A DNA stretch of 64,000 bases from Enterococcus sp. DIV0660C (GTDB lineage Bacteria; Bacillota; Bacilli; Lactobacillales; Enterococcaceae). The translations under genes and the position numbers were made by a program. Where the stretch lies: positions 1-64,000 of the forward strand of contig NZ_JAFLWA010000031.1 of assembly GCF_017316125.1 (NCBI RefSeq), in the 5' to 3' direction. The notes below the pieces were generated by a model. It made no database searches, was not told the DNA's origin, and worked only from the letters and a program-made list of their open reading frames with translations. Within the stretch, counting starts at the first letter, position 1. Each line of letters opens with the position of its first letter. Shown here in pieces: positions 523 through 63,857 of this stretch.

Positions 523-596
523 GGCGGATGTGGCGAAGTGGTTAACGCACCGGATTGTGGCTCCGGCACTCGTGGGTTCGATTCCCATCATTCGCC
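523..596 (+). tRNA. tRNA-His (GTG), copy 1
   Basis: The anticodon loop TTGTGGC gives GTG. The extra 5' G (G-1, position 523) faces discriminator C at 596, the identity feature of tRNA-His. A second copy lies at 946-1019 and differs at two positions (A528 versus G951 in the acceptor, T588 versus C1011 in the T stem). Both changes keep pairing. Confidence 0.95.
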
Positions 597-606
597 CTTT
601 TTTTAT

Positions 607-678
607 TGGGGTATAGCCAAGCGGTAAGGCAAGGGACTTTGACTCCCTCATGCGTTGGTTCGAATCCAGCTACCCCAG
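607..678 (+). tRNA. tRNA-Gln (TTG), copy 1
   Basis: Acceptor TGGGGTA pairs with TACCCCA and the discriminator is G. The anticodon loop CTTTGAC gives TTG. The second copy at 1030-1101 looks identical, and the ten-base spacer between His and Gln is also the same in both blocks. Confidence 0.95.
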
Positions 679-712
679 TTCTATAAAATTTATAGATTGA
701 TAATCGTATAAT

Positions 713-783
<71 letters not shown>

Positions 784-802
784 TAGTACAATTTATCGAC
801 AT

Positions 803-887
803 GCCGGCGTGGCGGAATTGGCAGACGCGCTGGACTCAAAATCCAGTGCCCGTTAAGGGCGTGCCGGTTCGACCCCGGCCGCCGGTA
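803..887 (+). tRNA. tRNA-Leu (CAA), copy 1
   Basis: An 85-nt class II tRNA with a long variable arm (TGCCCGTTAAGGGCG). Acceptor GCCGGCG pairs with CGCCGGT through a terminal G-U, and the discriminator is A. The loop CTCAAAA gives CAA. A rho-independent terminator follows at once. Confidence 0.95.
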
Positions 888-890
888 TTA

Positions 891-916
891 CTAAGGTGTT
901 TTCATCTTAGTTTTTT
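891..916 (+). terminator. Terminator of the first tRNA array
   Basis: The hairpin CTAAGGTG / CATCTTAG has a TTTT loop and is followed by six T residues. It lies four bases after tRNA-Leu copy 1 and probably ends the ten-gene transcript. Confidence 0.85.
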
Positions 917-945
917 ATTGGGTAATTAAATAACATATGTATGAT

Positions 946-1019
946 GGCGGGTGTGGCGAAGTGGTTAACGCACCGGATTGTGGCTCCGGCACTCGTGGGT
1001 TCGATTCCCACCATTCGCC
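946..1019 (+). tRNA. tRNA-His (GTG), copy 2
   Basis: Same anticodon loop and G-1:C73 feature as copy 1, with two compatible substitutions. It sits downstream of the terminator at 891-916. It therefore either has its own promoter, for which I see no strong candidate, or depends on read-through. Confidence 0.94.
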
Positions 1020-1029
1020 CTTTTTTTAT

Positions 1030-1101
1030 TGGGGTATAGCCAAGCGGTAAGGCAAGGGACTTTGACTCCCTCATGCGTTGGTTCGAATCCAGCTACCCCA
1101 G
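1030..1101 (+). tRNA. tRNA-Gln (TTG), copy 2
   Basis: A second, apparently identical copy of the 607-678 gene with acceptor TGGGGTA/TACCCCA and anticodon TTG. It is preceded by the same CTTTTTTTAT spacer. Confidence 0.95.
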
Positions 1102-1125
1102 TTGATTTAAAGTAAGTTTTACTAT

Positions 1126-1210
1126 GCCGGCGTGGCGGAATTGGCAGACGCGCTGGACTCAAAATCCAGTGCCCGTTAAGGGCGTGCCGGTTCGACCCCG
1201 GCCGCCGGTA
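1126..1210 (+). tRNA. tRNA-Leu (CAA), copy 2
   Basis: A second copy of the 803-887 gene with the same acceptor, variable arm and CAA anticodon. It is the last tRNA gene before the decayed integrase island. Confidence 0.95.
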
Positions 1211-1220
1211 TACATCAATG

Positions 1221-54900: not shown

Positions 54901-55578
54901 ATGACAAAGATTAGTATTGCAATTGATGGGCCGGCTTCTTCTGGCAAAAGTACTGTAGCAAAAATTTTAGCGAAAGATTTTCAGTATATTTACACCGACA
55001 CAGGAGCTATGTATCGAGCAGTGACCTATCTGGCAATCAAGCATCAAATTTCTTTTGCTGACGAAGTTGGGTTAGTTACTTTGATTAAAGAAAATCCAAT
55101 TTCTTTCCAACAAAAAGCAGATGGCCAGCATGTGTTTGTTTCAGGACAAGATGTGACAGCTGAAATTCGTCAGCCTGATGTGACAAAAGCTGTTTCAGAA
55201 GTTTCAGCACATGGAAAAGTCCGAGAAGAGCTTGTTGCTATTCAACAACAAATTGGTGAAGATGGTGGCGTGGTAATGGATGGACGTGATATTGGAACAG
55301 CCGTTCTACCGCATGCAGAGATCAAAATATTTTTAGTAGCAAGTGTTTCTGAACGGGCACAACGCCGTTACAAAGAAAACCAAGAAAAAGGGATCCCAAC
55401 TGATTTAGAAACCCTAACAAAAGAAATTCAAGAACGTGATCATTATGATTCGACACGTGAAATTTCTCCGTTGAAACAAGCAGAAGATGCCGTACGAATT
55501 GATACAACGGGAAAATCTATTTTAGAAGTGGTAGCAATGATTAAAGAAGTTGTTTCCGAAAAAGGCTATCAATTATAA
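54901..55578 (+). CDS. cmk: Cytidylate kinase
   Basis: A 225-residue (d)CMP kinase. It starts [20 protein letters not shown] (P-loop), then [20 protein letters not shown], the CMP-binding [20 protein letters not shown] and the lid segment [18 protein letters not shown]. The ATG at 54901 follows GAGGAG; the upstream in-frame start at 54886 lies inside the terminator tail. It is followed by rpsA, the usual order in Firmicutes. Confidence 0.95.
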
Positions 55579-58701: not shown

Positions 58702-58977
58702 ATGGCAAACAAAGCAGAATTAATCGAAAAAGTTGCTTCAGCTACTGATTTAACTAAAAAAGACGCAACTGCAGCTGTAGACGCTGTATTTTCAACTATT
58801 CAAGATGCTTTAGCTAACGGCGAAAAAGTTCAATTAATCGGTTTTGGTAATTTCGAAGTTCGCGAACGCGCAGCTCGCAAAGGTCGTAACCCACAAACTG
58901 GTGAAGAAATCGAAATCCCAGCTAGCAAAGTACCTGCATTCAAACCAGGTAAAGCATTGAAAGACGCAGTTAAATAA
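58702..58977 (+). CDS. hup: DNA-binding protein HU
   Basis: A 91-residue histone-like protein. [20 protein letters not shown] at the start and the beta-arm [19 protein letters not shown] are characteristic, as is the end [16 protein letters not shown]. It bends and compacts DNA as a homodimer. GAGGAGGTG precedes the ATG. The gene is in its own transcript: about 240 bases of leader/intergenic sequence before it with a TATAAT near 58648, and a strong terminator after. Confidence 0.97.
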
Positions 58978-59113: not shown

Positions 59114-59458
59114 TTATTTCAGATGACACTCCCACCCTAATCCCAAATTAAATTCTTCCAATACACTTGTGTAGTTGAATTGCCCATCATTTTCTTGAAT
59201 CAGATAATTGATCATCGAAGTATTCGCTTCGTTTTCCATTTTTGAGTGGAAGACAGGATTGCTATATAATGCATTGAATTCTGAATGGTTTAGTGCATGA
59301 TAAAGTTCATGAAGGATCACTTGTTTTTGCTTTTCTTCTGATTGATTTTGATTGATGACCATTAGATTCAAGTCATCAAAATAATAGCCTCTTTTTTCTA
59401 ATTCCATCACGACTAGCTCAATTCCATGACTAGCGAGTAGCTCCTTTATTTTTTCCAT
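59114..59458 (-). CDS. ImmA/IrrE-type metallopeptidase, phage-like
   Basis: A 114-residue protein with the zinc-peptidase motif HELYHALNH (HExxH) near residue 50 and a later Glu-containing segment MENEANTSMINYL, the pattern of ImmA. In phages and ICEBs1, ImmA-type proteases cut a neighbouring repressor to induce the element. It starts 12 bases after the repressor stop, with AAGGAG upstream, so the two form a unit. It is short for the family but has the essential motif. Confidence 0.82.
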   Translation of the reverse strand: MEKIKELLASHGIELVVMELEKRGYYFDDLNLMVINQNQSEEKQKQVILHELYHALNHSEFNALYSNPVFHSKMENEANTSMINYLIQENDGQFNYTSVLEEFNLGLGWECHLK

Positions 59459-59470
59459 AAAAAAGACTCC

Positions 59471-59806
59471 TTACTTACTCATTCGTCCTTCTAAAAATGC
59501 GCGAATGGCCTCTCTGTCATTGTCCGTCATCGGTTTTCCATCAAAGCTTTTCACATTGTCTAAGATTTTATTGAGATCCTCTGGTATCGTTGATTTGGTG
59601 CCCAAAGAAGGTGTATCTGTTCGTCCAAGTAAATAATCTGTTGAAACGTGAAAGTATTCTGCGACTTTTTCAAGAGTTTCCGCTTTTGGACTACTTGTCC
59701 GCCACTGATAGATCACATTTTTTGACAGCCCAATATCTTCTGCAAGCTTATTTAAGCTGATTCCTTGTTTTTTTGAAAGATTCGAAACTCTTTCGTATAA
59801 ACTCAT
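59471..59806 (-). CDS. Cro/CI-type phage repressor
   Basis: A 111-residue regulator. An HTH_3 domain occupies residues 3-62 (ISLNKLAEDIGLSKNVIYQW, then STDYLLGRTDTP). A short C-terminal tail NDREAIRAFLEGRMSK may be the oligomerisation or ImmA-sensitive part. The ATG at 59806 follows AAAGGAG. Divergent transcription from the ArpU-like gene across 266 bases is the classic immunity-region arrangement. Confidence 0.85.
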   Translation of the reverse strand: MSLYERVSNLSKKQGISLNKLAEDIGLSKNVIYQWRTSSPKAETLEKVAEYFHVSTDYLLGRTDTPSLGTKSTIPEDLNKILDNVKSFDGKPMTDNDREAIRAFLEGRMSK

Positions 59807-60072
59807 TATAAAAACTCCTTTTTATATTTTTTTATAAAAATGTTGAAAATTATAAAATAATGGGATAATATTATTTATAGATTACTCATGCAAAAACAAA
59901 GTGAATAAGAAATGTTGTTTTTGTTACTTTTATTTTATAAAACTTTATGATGTAAGTCAATGTAAGTTTAGATTTTCAAGATAATTATATTTTTTTATGA
60001 AGATAGTAATAGTAAGAGAATGACGTCAATAAAATATTTTACCTATATAAAATTAGTTAGGAGTGGAGCATT
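59807..60072. promoter_or_regulatory. Divergent control region of the phage-like module
   Basis: Very AT-rich. It contains TTTTTATAAAAA-like palindromes near 59817-59835 and a direct repeat TGTAAGT (59951-59957 and 59961-59967) spaced exactly 10 bp. These are plausible repressor contacts. I do not see a single dominant operator, and promoters on both strands cannot be placed with confidence. Confidence 0.45.
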
Positions 60073-60480
60073 TTGCGAAAATCAACATTTAATTATATTA
60101 AGGATATTTTATCTGATTATTATCAAACAGATGCGTATATTAAACAAAGAGAAGAAGAATTACGCCATCCATTTATAGAAGCCGATTTGAATAGCTCTAT
60201 TCGTGGTCAAGGAAACCATAACGTAGCAACTGAAAGGATGGCTATCACGATTGCAATGGATCGCCGACTTTGGAATTTAGAAAGAAACCGTGATGTGGTG
60301 AAAGACTGTTTGGCGCGCGCGGATGAAAATACAAAAGAAATCATCGAGAAACTCTATTTACAAAAAAATGCAACAGTCAATTTATTGGGAATGAGTCAAC
60401 GCTTGTTTATTAGTAAAAGTAAAGCTTACGAACTAAGAAATGATTTTTTTGAAGCTGTTGCAGATGAGTTAGGTTTGTAA
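60073..60480 (+). CDS. ArpU/RinA-like phage transcriptional regulator
   Basis: A 135-residue protein. Its N-terminal half has FNYIKDILSDYYQTDAYIKQ and a charged helical stretch. The C-terminal half (NATVNLLGMSQRLFISKSKA, YELRNDFFEAVADELGL) has the helix-turn-helix and LGL ending common in ArpU/RinA late regulators of enterococcal and staphylococcal phages. ArpU was named in E. hirae as a regulator of autolysin. Start is TTG at 60073 after GGAGTGG. It faces the repressor and precedes the holin leader, so control of the lysis genes is the natural inference. Confidence 0.6.
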   Translation: MRKSTFNYIKDILSDYYQTDAYIKQREEELRHPFIEADLNSSIRGQGNHNVATERMAITIAMDRRLWNLERNRDVVKDCLARADENTKEIIEKLYLQKNATVNLLGMSQRLFISKSKAYELRNDFFEAVADELGL

Positions 60481-60599
60481 CTTTGGAAAAACTCAGGAAT
60501 TTTTTTCGTAGTCAACAGGCTAAAATAATATCATCAAGAAAATAAACATTTCAGAATTAATTAACTTGCTTCTTAAAAATGAAGAAAACTAATTTAGAA

Positions 60600-60775
60600 T
60601 TGAAAAATTTTCTTGAAGTTATTATAAGGTGGTGATTTCTACTTAGATCAACGTTTTTCGTTTCAAAAAACGTTGATCTAAGATGGCTGAAAAAATTAGA
60701 ATAGGGTAAAAATTTGATTTTGATTATATGTTTTAAATTAGAGATAGGCATGTTAAATAGGCATGTCTATTTTTT
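60600..60775 (+). promoter_or_regulatory. Promoter, 17-bp hairpin and terminator ahead of the holin
   Basis: TTGAAA (60600-60605), a 17-base spacer and TATAAG (60623-60628) predict transcription from about 60635. The leader at once forms a perfect 17-bp hairpin, CTTAGATCAACGTTTTT with its complement (60642-60681). It then meets an intrinsic terminator (ATAGGCATG / CATGTCTAT plus T's, 60744-60775). The holin ribosome site lies beyond. This layout looks like a gated late operon in which read-through must be licensed. Confidence 0.55.
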
Positions 60776-60810
60776 AGGACAAATAATAAAAATTGAAAGG
60801 TGGTAACAGA

Positions 60811-61212
60811 TTGATTATCGATAATTTATTATTATGGAATGAATTCCGAGGATTACTAAATAATATTTACATCCAAATTTTTGTTTGGATTGTGATTGCA
60901 GATATTGTAACAGGTATTTGCAAAGGAATTTTAATTAAAGAAACGAATAGTACAAAAGGTTTAATGGGGATTGTAAAACACCTACTAGTTATTGGCTTGG
61001 TTTTGATTTCATATCCGTATCTAAAAATTATGGGATTTGAAGGAGTAGCAACAGCGTTTGTCTTTTCTTACATTGCTGTTTATGGTATTTCCGTAATTGA
61101 AAATCTAGGACAGTTAGGCATTCCTGTACCAGAATTTGTCAAAAATCGTTTTAGTAAATTAAAAAACACATCAGAAAAACAAGGTGAAGAAGAAAATGGA
61201 GGGGAAAAATAA
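60811..61212 (+). CDS. Phage-type holin (holin 4 family)
   Basis: A 133-residue membrane protein with about three spans: IYIQIFVWIVIADIVTGICK, GIVKHLLVIGLVLISYPYLK and VATAFVFSYIAVYGISVIEN. A charged tail ends NGGEK. The WIVIADIVTGICKG start of the first span is typical of the family that includes TcdE-like holins. The TTG at 60811 is chosen because AAAGGTGG lies seven bases before it. Its stop overlaps the amidase ATG by one base, so the pair is translationally coupled as holin and endolysin. Confidence 0.85.
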   Translation: MIIDNLLLWNEFRGLLNNIYIQIFVWIVIADIVTGICKGILIKETNSTKGLMGIVKHLLVIGLVLISYPYLKIMGFEGVATAFVFSYIAVYGISVIENLGQLGIPVPEFVKNRFSKLKNTSEKQGEEENGGEK

Positions 61213-62201
61213 TGGTCAAAATTATCAATAATTCCGTTTGTCGTGGCGTAGCAGATAAGCGGGTGGGAAGTGTAAAAGGTGTTGTCATTCACAATACTTG
61301 GACAAATACAACTGCTGAACAAGAAATGAATCGTTTGGAAAATATGACACCTAAACAATTAGAAGCTGGATTTGCCCATTATTATGTGGACGAAAAGACA
61401 ATTATTCGCACAGAAGATACTTACAATCGGGCTTGGCACGTGGCGAATTCAGAAGGTAATAATAGTTACCTTGGTTATGAAGTACGTGGTAATCGCGAAA
61501 CGTCCAAAGTAGTATTCTTACAAGCAGAACAAAATGTTTTCTGGCAGGCTGCAATTGATCTACATTATTATGGTTTATCAGTCAATCGTGACACTGTTAA
61601 ATGTCATCATCAGTTTTCAGCAACTGAATGTCCGAAGCGCTCATTGATGGAACATTGTGGATTTGATTCGACGTTTGCTATACCAACAGAGGTTACTGCC
61701 AAAATGCAAGATTATTTTATTTCTCAAATCAAGAAATATTATGATGATCCAACTTTGCAGCCAGATGGAAGTAGCGAAGGAGATAATGAACATGATGAAA
61801 TTATTGCAGGAAGTCCAGCAAAAACGATTAATGGAATGACTGCAAAACTAGATATTTATAATGAAAATCCGATTGGTTCTTTCCGTGGAGCAGGCTGGGC
61901 ACATGCTGGGAAACAGACCTTTAATTATTGTTTTATCTTCTTGATGGACGCTGAGACTGGTAACGAAATTGAACGACAACAATCAAAAAATATTGCACGC
62001 CCAGATGTAAATGCAATTTACGGATTAGCTAATGATAACAAGCCAGGCTTTGATGGAAGCATCAATATTACGAAACAAGCTGGTAAGAAAGCTTATATCA
62101 AAATTCGGTTAACTAATGATAGTAGTGGAAATACAGTAGGTGGTGCAAAAGATGTAGACTTTAATGAATATGTATTAACAATCCCAAAACGGTCACACTA
62201 A
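61212..62201 (+). CDS. N-acetylmuramoyl-L-alanine amidase (phage endolysin type)
   Basis: A 329-residue amidase. Residues 1 to about 165 are an Amidase_2 domain with zinc ligands His27 (VVIHNTW), His132/133 (CHHQFSATECP) and Cys140. A linker of acidic and Gly/Ser residues (about 180-195) leads to a C-terminal beta-rich module (NGMTAKLDIYNENP, AGWAHAG, INITKQAGKKAYIKIRLTND), probably for cell-wall binding. No signal peptide is present, so release depends on the holin encoded just before it. It cleaves the bond between muramic acid and the stem peptide. Confidence 0.88.
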   Translation: MVKIINNSVCRGVADKRVGSVKGVVIHNTWTNTTAEQEMNRLENMTPKQLEAGFAHYYVDEKTIIRTEDTYNRAWHVANSEGNNSYLGYEVRGNRETSKVVFLQAEQNVFWQAAIDLHYYGLSVNRDTVKCHHQFSATECPKRSLMEHCGFDSTFAIPTEVTAKMQDYFISQIKKYYDDPTLQPDGSSEGDNEHDEIIAGSPAKTINGMTAKLDIYNENPIGSFRGAGWAHAGKQTFNYCFIFLMDAETGNEIERQQSKNIARPDVNAIYGLANDNKPGFDGSINITKQAGKKAYIKIRLTNDSSGNTVGGAKDVDFNEYVLTIPKRSH

Positions 62202-62296: not shown

Positions 62297-62756
62297 TCAA
62301 CTGATATACCCATTATTTTTTAACGCTTTTTGATGTTCACAGGGTTCCCCAACAATTGTGAAGTTAGTGATTCTAGTGCTTTCTTGTTGATTTGACCAAT
62401 CGTAAGTGCAGTTTTTGCCAGTCCAAATGCTATCACAAGCAAAGCAATGATATTCCACTCCAATTAGTCCAGCTGGATTTTCACCTTGAATCTACCCAAT
62501 ACATTTACCTGTGCCATTGTCATCGTGGTTTGATCTAAGTCGAAATCATAAGGATTATAAGTAAATTCTGTTAGCGGTATCGCTTTAGTAACTAGTGCTT
62601 TTGCTAATACAGGATCGACGCTAGTTTTTTCTTCGGATTTTTTCTGTTTTTTCTGATGTTTGTTCTTCTGATAGTTGTTTTTCTGGTTGTGTCTGTATCG
62701 TTTGTTGACTTGTTTCAGTTGAAATAGTTGAAGAAGCTATATCAGTTTTCTTTTCT
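62297..62756 (-). pseudogene. Degraded lipoprotein-like gene
   Basis: On the minus strand the pieces are a Ser/Thr/Gln/Glu-rich linker (SSTISTETSQQTIQTQPEKQ), then SEEKTSVDPVLAKALVTKAI and FTYNPYDFDLDQTTMTMA. Further in come DNGTGKCIG, stop, GENPAGLIGVEYHCFACDSI and the end EHQKALKNNGYIS. They lie in different frames: one shift is near 62645, another near 62525, and an in-frame TAG is near 62494. The signal peptide and start are missing. The order suggests a lost secreted protein; no family is recognised. Confidence 0.6.
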
Positions 62757-62786: not shown

Positions 62787-62807
62787 AAAGAAAAGGGGGG
62801 ATGCGTG

Positions 62808-63857
62808 TTGGAACTTAAGTTTTCCATGGTTGAACAAACCACAACGATTTCTTACGGTGAAACGTTAAGCAGTCTACTAAAACCATTGGCTATCAGAGAA
62901 CCAATCTTGTTCTTAACTAATCAGCGTTATTATGATTTGTTTTCAGAAAAAATAAATCATTTTTTTGCAAATCAGGCAAATGTTGATTGGTATATTTGTA
63001 CGAATAGTGCGCAATGCAATAACTTAACAGAACTTGCGCATCTCTTAGACTATGTCAAACGTTTTCCGGAAAATCAGCAGCTGGTTGTGATTGGATTTGG
63101 AAATGAAGGAATGATGGAATTAGCTAGTTTTTTTCAAAAACACACGATTCTTACAACGAAGCTTTGGTTGATTCCTGTATCTGCTCGTTCATTCGGTGGG
63201 GCATTAACAAACAAACGCAGTATTTTACAGTTACCTTATCAGGCTGTTTTAGAAACAGAGAATTTGCCTGAACGAATTTTCTATGACCAAACGATTAGTG
63301 ATCGCCAAGTTGAAGGCAAACAAATCGACTTTTTGACGTTTATCGTTTGTGGATTGGTTTGTGATTATGGTTTCTTACAGAGCTTATACAAAAATTACTC
63401 AACACAGCAAAAATTACACAACGTTCCTTTTTCAGGAATGCTTGAAGAATTGGTCTATTTTTACCAAGAAGAGGCGGAAAATCTTGCAACTTATGGTAAA
63501 CTATTTGAGCAAGCTTTTTATCTAACAGAAAACGGACATTTATTATCAGCAAGTATGAAAAAATTTTTAGGATTGATTTTTCAATTAGTTTGGAATGTCG
63601 AGCGTAATGCAATCTCTTTTCAATTGAAAAATTTTTTTATTTGGTTGCAACATCTTGGTTATCCAATTGACTGGTTGGAGCAGCTATTTGAAGCTGAATA
63701 CTTAGAAAATGTCTTGAGTTTAGCAGAAAAAAGCAAAAAGATTCTTGTTTTAGAAAAAATTGGTATAATAGAAGGATACCATTCACCAAGCGAGAATGAA
63801 TTGTTGAAAATGATGACAAGATATCAACAAATTGTCAATGAGATTAGAGGGAATTGA
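62808..63857 (+). CDS. Degenerate 3-dehydroquinate synthase-like protein
   Basis: A protein of about 349 residues that follows the AroB fold order. A strand/turn LVVIGFGNEGMMELASFFQK stands where AroB has its GGGVIGDLAGF motif. LIPVSARSFGGALTNKRSIL stands where AroB has PTTLLAQVDSSIGGK, and LPERIFYDQTISD where AroB has the Asp and Leu-Pro segment. The Lys, Glu and His residues that bind substrate and zinc in true AroB are not apparent, so it is probably not an active synthase. The TTG at 62808 fits AAGGGGGG better than GTG 62805. It is directly followed by a TPR gene, forming a unit. Confidence 0.55.
   Translation: MELKFSMVEQTTTISYGETLSSLLKPLAIREPILFLTNQRYYDLFSEKINHFFANQANVDWYICTNSAQCNNLTELAHLLDYVKRFPENQQLVVIGFGNEGMMELASFFQKHTILTTKLWLIPVSARSFGGALTNKRSILQLPYQAVLETENLPERIFYDQTISDRQVEGKQIDFLTFIVCGLVCDYGFLQSLYKNYSTQQKLHNVPFSGMLEELVYFYQEEAENLATYGKLFEQAFYLTENGHLLSASMKKFLGLIFQLVWNVERNAISFQLKNFFIWLQHLGYPIDWLEQLFEAEYLENVLSLAEKSKKILVLEKIGIIEGYHSPSENELLKMMTRYQQIVNEIRGN

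Follow-up and report, generated by a model that had tools for sequence, protein, structure and literature searches.

A tail-less switch-and-lysis cassette beside hup in Enterococcus sp. DIV0660C, probably left over from a headless tail island

Introduction

Phage lysis genes can be used by bacterial hosts for release, as in the case of TcdE-like holins, which are encoded in or next to the operon of their cargo. Here, we analyse a cassette of five genes, encoding an ImmA-like peptidase, a CI-like repressor, an ArpU-family activator, a holin and an amidase, which lies at positions 59114–62201 of a 64,000-nucleotide stretch of Enterococcus sp. DIV0660C (contig NZ_JAFLWA010000031.1, positions 1 to 64,000, forward strand; hereafter 'the window', its genome being G000). 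An original prediction, made from the letters of this DNA, had proposed that the cassette is a stand-alone domesticated lysis system.

Among the closest described systems are elements that still have their tails. In the monocin of Listeria, the M78 protease MpaR is described as an anti-repressor of CI under stress, deletion of cI is reported to be lethal, and the effects of MpaR extend to a second prophage of L. monocytogenes (PMC6872733). The element pp2 of E. faecalis V583 (EF1276–EF1293) is described as having repressor, tail and lysis genes without integrase, portal, head or packaging genes, as being present in all E. faecalis and as never having been seen to excise (PMC3675006). Among the best matches in the open-access literature, no title or opening of an abstract described tail-less cassettes of the kind found in the window.

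Results

The same site in related enterococci

The window cassette is most likely the remnant of an F-type tailocin-like island belonging to the site between hup and an AroB-like gene, with the tails gone and the switch and the lysis module left behind. We read it in this way because the same five genes occupy the same site in two relatives, there with tail genes between them, and because the window is collinear with these relatives up to a single joint. Our genus survey covered 15 genomes including that of the window, and in all 15 the site is adjoined by hup and the AroB-like gene (the latter was matched in two pieces in G003). In 12 of the 15, two of which carry other genes there, none of the five cassette genes finds a match within the interval. 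Enterococcus sp. MSG2901 (G001) and E. thailandicus DSM 21767 (G012) have all five, in the same order and orientation, with about 12 kb between arpU and the holin gene. Ten proteins of the G001 island were scanned against PHROGs. Identified in this way were the major tail protein, a pair of tail chaperones, a tape measure of only 541 amino acids (aa), Dit, a Tal-like protein that includes lysozyme-like and peptidase-like portions, tip proteins of minor-tail/baseplate-like and phosphodiesterase type and, after the amidase, a second lysin-like protein; some of the tip proteins match PHROGs that are filed as 'head and packaging'. The G012 island is collinear with this one over most of its length. 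By gene content, both islands have a siphophage-type (F-type) tailocin-like layout. The same island occurs in IMG/VR 2806310747, with 99.5% identity to G012 until inside the Tal gene and divergence beyond, a pattern in keeping with diversifying pressure on the tip.

Neither the open reading frame (ORF) lists of the two islands nor the PHROGs matches of the ten G001 proteins contain a terminase, portal, capsid or other head gene or an integrase gene, and a full prophage at the locus was rejected on these grounds. Full prophages in close relatives, with the window copy a mere deletion product, had been named at the outset as what would speak against a domesticated system; what the relatives carry is a headless tail island rather than a prophage, and a deletion product is indeed what the window copy most likely is. 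The tail-less form was found at the hup site in one of the three element-bearing genomes, that of the window, the other two having tails; none of the other 14 genomes of the genus has the five genes there without surrounding phage genes, contrary to what a conserved cassette would have led one to expect. The part of the original prediction that saw only a switch and a lysis output at the window locus stands, as to anatomy and retained constraint; a free-standing cassette conserved among relatives it is not, since two have the tail module and 12 of the 15 have no such element at the site.

A second holin–amidase copy in E. thailandicus (G012:C1) was considered as another cassette and rejected, as it follows a tape-measure ORF of more than 1400 aa and other tail genes. 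The window genome also has a second holin/amidase remnant, truncated and directly after lepA (G000:C10:85780–86296; L002, L036), and a related pair stands in E. thailandicus behind prophage tail genes on another contig.

Genes and control region of the window locus

The site is bounded in the window by hup, encoding HU, on the left (58702–58977, +) and by the AroB-like gene of the predicted AroB-like/TPR pair on the right (62805–63857, +; no Pfam match at 1e-3). Domain matches and ORF calls agree on the presence of all five predicted genes with intact frames. On the reverse strand are an ImmA-like M78 metallopeptidase of 114 aa with an HELYH motif (59114–59458, −; Peptidase_M78, 6.2e-10; no PDB match at E 0.1) and a CI/ImmR-like helix-turn-helix (HTH) repressor of 111 aa (59471–59806, −; HTH_3/HTH_19), in which the domain search found no peptidase domain. 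An HTH repressor beside an HExxH-bearing M78 protease, divergent from the early genes, constitutes an ImmR/ImmA-type arrangement. The forward strand carries a RinA/ArpU-family activator of 135 aa with a TTG start (60073–60480, +), which has no Pfam match and owes its family assignment to TIGR01636 (8.3e-50), a holin of about 133 aa (60811–61212, +; Phage_holin_4_1, 1.5e-21, and TIGR01593) and, by domain search, an N-acetylmuramoyl-L-alanine amidase of 329 aa (61212–62201, +; Amidase_2, 8.5e-13), the nearest solved structure of which is PDB 8c4d (4.1e-130). The most likely start of the holin is TTG 60811 rather than 60793, because the latter falls within the ribosome-binding stretch and, by eye, 60811 aligns with the ATG used in both relatives.

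Between the flanks, no further ORF of at least 50 aa resembles a tail, head, packaging, integrase or replication gene, just as had been predicted, and tail-protein queries from G001 and G092 (a genome of another genus, see below) gave no match at the locus, which has intact lysis genes without virion genes. The cassette is followed by the broken remains of a membrane/lipoprotein-like gene (62300–62737, −), which is intact, with 198–200 aa, beside the tail islands of G001 and G012; none was found at the site in the other 12 genomes of the genus, and it is possibly cargo of the element. Far from the locus, at window positions 524–1211, there is a cluster of tRNA genes in which a His-Gln-(Cys)-Leu(caa) block recurs.

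The divergent control region (59807–60072) contains TTTTATAAAA-type inverted repeats, which are putative CI operators, even if chance repeats are possible in so AT-rich a region. Straight after arpU follows a block (TGGAAAAA...GGAATTTTT; 60484–60530, +) that is kept in G001, in G012, in the pp2-like locus of E. faecalis and in G031 from another genus, and which is a candidate for an ArpU-dependent late promoter. A perfect 17-bp inverted repeat (60642–60682), imperfect in both relatives, sits at the edge of the deletion, and a strong hairpin ending in a T-run (60740–60774, +; −15.4 kcal/mol, z −6.1) stands just before the holin gene; the latter is terminator- or attenuator-like and was not listed by a scan for consensus-type terminators. 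No LexA-type box was found between 59000 and 62210 with up to one mismatch to GAAC-N4-GTTC, which we take to be the Gram-positive LexA box. A direct SOS promoter is therefore not seen, and of the SOS- or protease-triggered release first proposed for the cassette only the route via ImmA, as predicted from its family, remains.

The joint and the missing tail genes

Collinearity of the window with G001 extends to 60694 and resumes at 60841; with G012, it resumes at 60770. The joint between the left and right collinear blocks (60695–60769) thus has its left edge just after the 17-bp inverted repeat. The tape measure of the tail island has no match anywhere in the window genome, which also has no match to portal (PF04860) or TerL (PF03354), two families that do not cover all phages. 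A 30-mer across the joint had no match in viral_contigs, a collection that may omit near relatives of the window genome, and a search for plasmid or phage homes of the cassette gave partial matches only, with no record covering 80% of it. The rpsA gene has a synonymous divergence (dS) of 0.09 between the window genome and G001 versus 0.18 between the window genome and G012. Since flank divergence thus makes G012 the outgroup, the parsimonious reading is that the tails are ancestral and that about 12 kb of tail genes were lost in the window genome, rather than gained later elsewhere.

Several observations weigh against so simple a history. The joint itself has no match in any of the loci compared, prophages included, and is therefore not a clean deletion, and the hairpin before the holin could stop transcription into the lysis genes. 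For the regulators, dS between G012 and the other two genomes is 0.42–0.68, compared with 0.12–0.34 for flanking genes; this implies either exchange of the element by recombination or a faster rate of evolution, and a single insertion followed by vertical descent is not proven. Against G001, moreover, dS of the holin (0.30) and the amidase (0.69) exceeds that of the regulators (0.06–0.23), so that the lysis module may have been exchanged, while against G012 the holin (0.56) resembles the regulators (0.51–0.68). An assembly error at the joint would also tell against it; in this draft assembly, judged without reads, we consider it highly improbable.

Constraint on the window frames

Changes were assigned to branches with G012 as outgroup, the regulators ImmA, CI and ArpU being counted together. 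On the window branch, these show 19 synonymous and 5 non-synonymous changes, the neutral expectation being about 75 non-synonymous ones, and holin plus amidase show 42 and 34, a ratio of 0.22; the corresponding counts on the tail-bearing G001 branch are 9 and 3 for the regulators and 45 and 70 for the lysis genes. The window frames have been constrained over the branch as a whole, and decay, which would have spoken against a functional device, is not borne out. Since the upper Poisson limit for a count of 5 is 10.5, no more than about 14% of the window branch can, by our own arithmetic, have been free of constraint. Either the loss of the tails is therefore recent or the genes are still used, which one genome cannot separate. 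Continued use is argued against by the broken neighbour gene, by the truncation of the holin/amidase remnant next to lepA and by the joint having no second isolate in viral_contigs.

Tail-less cassettes in another genus and another family

A survey of 98 Enterococcaceae genomes gave 45 RinA/ArpU matches, most of them judged by ORF lengths and BLAST labels alone. Tail-less loci account for 11 of these, namely the window and ten loci in a genus here called g11; seven bear tails without an evident head module (G001, G012, G016, G028, G027, G031 and G092), with the lack of head genes in G028 and G027 read from ORF patterns only and with an internal stop in arpU and a 718-aa ORF before the tail tube gene in G027. 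The remaining 27 are prophage-like or unclassifiable by ORF lengths and BLAST labels (L137 and L138 are too short, and arpU is broken in L120). A genus-level search found a related ArpU in 12 of 20 g11 genomes, G099 coming from this search, which was later than the family survey.

Eight of these loci, each from a different species, share one site and form what we call Type I (L121, L122, L123, L124, L126, L128, L129 and L131). ImmA, CI, ArpU and a BhlA-family holin of 69–71 aa are intact in all eight; methyltransferase and UspA genes lie downstream in all and cspA upstream in seven. Endolysins of the Amidase_5 and/or Phage_lysozyme2 type occur in five, whereas two of the others (G090, G094) have a second, Hol118-like holin and the third (G096) has neither; these families were assigned by Pfam in L122 and L129 and by similarity in the rest. 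The site is empty in G024. The cassette genes have a mean proportion of synonymous differences (pS) of 0.55–0.80 and a median dN/dS of 0.04–0.06 (holin up to 0.23), the flanking genes having values of 0.045 (methyltransferase) and 0.012 (UspA), although saturation left a finite dS in only 5 to 22 of the 28 pairs per gene. Judged from these ratios, the Type I cassette, syntenic in 8 of the 20 g11 genomes, is under purifying selection near synonymous saturation. Its ImmA has EEIAH in place of HExxH (L122:1454–1966, −, and likewise in the other seven), as has, by eye, the pp2-like ImmA, and its protease activity is therefore uncertain.

The four Type II loci of g11 (L125 and L132 versus L134 and L154) lie between a bPH_1 gene and monooxygenase/VOC genes, the names other than bPH_1 being given by eye. 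A full tail module is present in G092 and G099, and G088 and G084 are tail-less: the locus of G088 consists of ImmA, CI, ArpU, an Amidase_5 protein and a holin only, and that of G084 is the same with the holin first and the endolysin broken. Tail queries from G001 and G092 detected no tail-gene remnants in the 11 tail-less loci, the only matches being to a lysozyme domain shared with Tal and one weak match to a regulator. On a tree of ArpU proteins, Type I forms a 100/100 group and the label 'tail-less' needs at least two separate changes (by its starred branches; three on the tree itself), subject to a warning that long branches meet at the g11 group and with G028 put in the 'other' group. 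The tail-less outcome has come about at least one further time, in another genus of the Enterococcaceae.

A GAAC-N4-GTTC-like box stands straight after arpU in all 12 g11 loci, perfect in eight and with one mismatch in four; it starts at nucleotide 24 past the arpU stop in the ten tail-less loci and at nucleotide 18–19 in the two tailocins. The 51.5 kb scanned around these loci contain no other perfect box, but one-mismatch sites occur there ten more times, and it is by position that the four imperfect boxes are singled out. A perfect match was also found once inside the tail genes of G012 and once at window position 55295. As a control, GAACATAYGTTYG was sought in G081, G092 and G000 and has 2, 6 and 2 sites there, respectively, in each case with one site directly upstream of an ImpB/MucB-type polymerase gene, and a control pattern occurs in none of the three.

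When 395 genomes of the order were searched with a g11 ArpU, 32 of them gave a total of 39 matches; 18 of these were the window's own or known from the family survey, a further 20 loci were retrieved and a second match in G200 was left out. In 17 of the 20 retrieved loci, an ORF of 820 aa or more lies within 18 kb; these were taken, by ORF size alone, as tape-measure-bearing prophages. The other three have no ORF of tape-measure size and count as tail-less; all belong to a family here called f9. G394 (L213) has ImmA, CI, a Cro-like gene, ArpU, a Phage_holin_6_1 holin and a GH25 endolysin; G391 (L214) and G426 (L215) have ArpU, a holin of the Phage_holin_6_1 kind, a phrog_1009 protein and a 350–353 aa protein with no family match, with an S24-type repressor nearby. 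No perfect LexA-type box was found at these three loci. They may descend from either a tailocin or a prophage.

Discussion

How would a cassette of this composition work? Judging from the protein families and from the Listeria monocin, CI would hold the divergent promoters shut, and stress would activate ImmA, which is predicted from its family to bring about cleavage of CI. ArpU would then be made and would switch on the late promoter directly downstream of its own gene. With the tails gone, this promoter would lead via two hairpins straight into holin and amidase, and the cell would be permeabilized and lysed with no weapon released, stress-triggered lysis being suggested by analogy with the monocin.

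Whether such a switch still serves its host depends on what the loss of the tails meant. About evenly poised, in our judgement, is that the loss was recent and left a functionless relic with genes that have not yet decayed, CI being kept since losing it first would kill the cell, as deletion of cI is reported to do in the monocin (PMC6872733). That the tail-less form occurs at this site in one genome only, next to a gene (62300–62737) that is already broken and in a chromosome whose lepA-side lysis remnant is truncated, fits such a relic, and the regulator counts (5 non-synonymous changes against 75 under neutrality) leave room for the short unconstrained part of the branch that a recent loss needs. 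Reduction also goes further in g11, with a broken endolysin in the tail-less copy of G084 and none in three of the eight Type I cassettes. The intact frames of all five window genes, the constraint still visible on holin and amidase (0.22) and the long conservation of a similarly reduced architecture in g11, by contrast, are not what a mere relic would predict.

These latter data are better accommodated if tail loss was selected, or at least tolerated, since regulated lysis alone is useful, be it for the release of vesicles, DNA or protein or as an abortive stress response. Domestication of this kind, which we consider possible but on balance doubtful for the window, is consistent with the low dN/dS of all five genes, with the Type I cassettes in eight g11 species and the tail-less ArpU–holin loci in three f9 genomes, and with precedents such as DLP12 (PMC7918800) and the vesicles caused by the maltocin endolysin (PMC13393414); it has to contend with occurrence in a single genome, with the broken neighbour gene and with the absence of a LexA box from the window locus, unlike in g11. 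For a switch-plus-holin cassette kept by its host, the g11 loci make a stronger case than the window does.

It is improbable that the lysis module serves another resident phage, or that ImmA and CI regulate other elements as MpaR does with the second prophage of L. monocytogenes (PMC6872733). In PADLOC defence models, CI matches CapH (1.1e-9) and several RmrA models and ImmA weakly matches CapP (0.0043), CapH and CapP being switch pairs of defence systems, and ArpU, holin and amidase have no match to anti-phage defence families; a phage to be served would have to be one without PF04860, PF03354 or tape-measure matches in the window genome, which is conceivable only in so far as two families do not represent all phages. 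Least probable of all is that assembly fused two distant phage fragments: the genome is a draft in 65 contigs with a second related lysis remnant on contig 10, but one contig of 125,808 bases spans both flanks with synteny equal to that of the relatives on both sides, and the remnant on contig 10, besides being truncated, differs in sequence (85% over 474 bases).

The remnant of a tailocin-like island at the hup site may also be seen in a wider frame. Tentatively, and with slightly less than even confidence, we propose that, in lactic acid bacteria, loci of tailocins and prophages time and again shed their structural genes to become self-contained lysis switches, owned by the host and, in g11, triggered by DNA damage; the window would be a young case of such reduction. 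The three f9 loci add some strength to this proposal. If it is true, devices that permeabilize or lyse the cell for the release of DNA, vesicles or protein, or for self-sacrifice, would be an undescribed end point of tailocin evolution. The conserved and LexA-boxed g11 cassettes are the better place in which to seek a host-owned lysis programme in Gram-positive bacteria. The hup site, in turn, offers a before-and-after series at a single chromosomal position (no element, tailocin, tail-less form), where the value of lysis alone can be tested by gene removal.

How does the window locus compare with systems in which phage lysis genes are known to have been retained? It has no co-located cargo gene, its immediate neighbours being hup and the AroB-like gene (no search aimed at cargo families was made). 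With hup and AroB-like/TPR genes rather than a cargo operon as neighbours, it differs from both TcdE-like and type 10 secretion. In the type 10 secretion system of Y. entomophaga, phage lysis genes used by the host for release are described as lying in or next to the cargo operon (PMC10847048). DLP12 of E. coli K-12 is a defective prophage whose lysis genes were kept and have been called domesticated, with an effect on vesicle number; unlike the window locus, it is Gram-negative and has spanins, and its abstract contains no ImmA/CI/ArpU switch (PMC7918800). The maltocin of S. maltophilia, likewise Gram-negative, is described as a tailocin whose endolysin causes explosive lysis and a vesicle phenotype after DNA damage, there with the maltocin gene cluster present (PMC13393414).

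Closer to home, a stretch filed under an Enterococcus phage (L096; OR846587.1, 142551–161603) encodes an ArpU 73% identical to that of the window, followed by tail tube and chaperone genes at 25–43% identity, and is presumably pp2. This record, named Efs 1-1-1, reads by eye as E. faecalis chromosome (nusA, infB, rbfA), which looks likely to be host contamination. In its layout as a resident headless element, pp2 resembles the G001 and G012 islands; it differs from the tail-less window copy in its site, its tail genes and, by eye, its DnaD/DnaC-like genes. The monocin of Listeria, likened here by description and not by sequence, has early genes lmaD/lmaC and a tail module that has been kept, and the text of PMC6872733 does not mention ArpU. 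It is an F-type tailocin with a bacteriocin module and stress induction, and it shares with the window locus a divergent switch made of a CI-like repressor and an M78/DUF955 protease together with a lysis module (PMC6872733).

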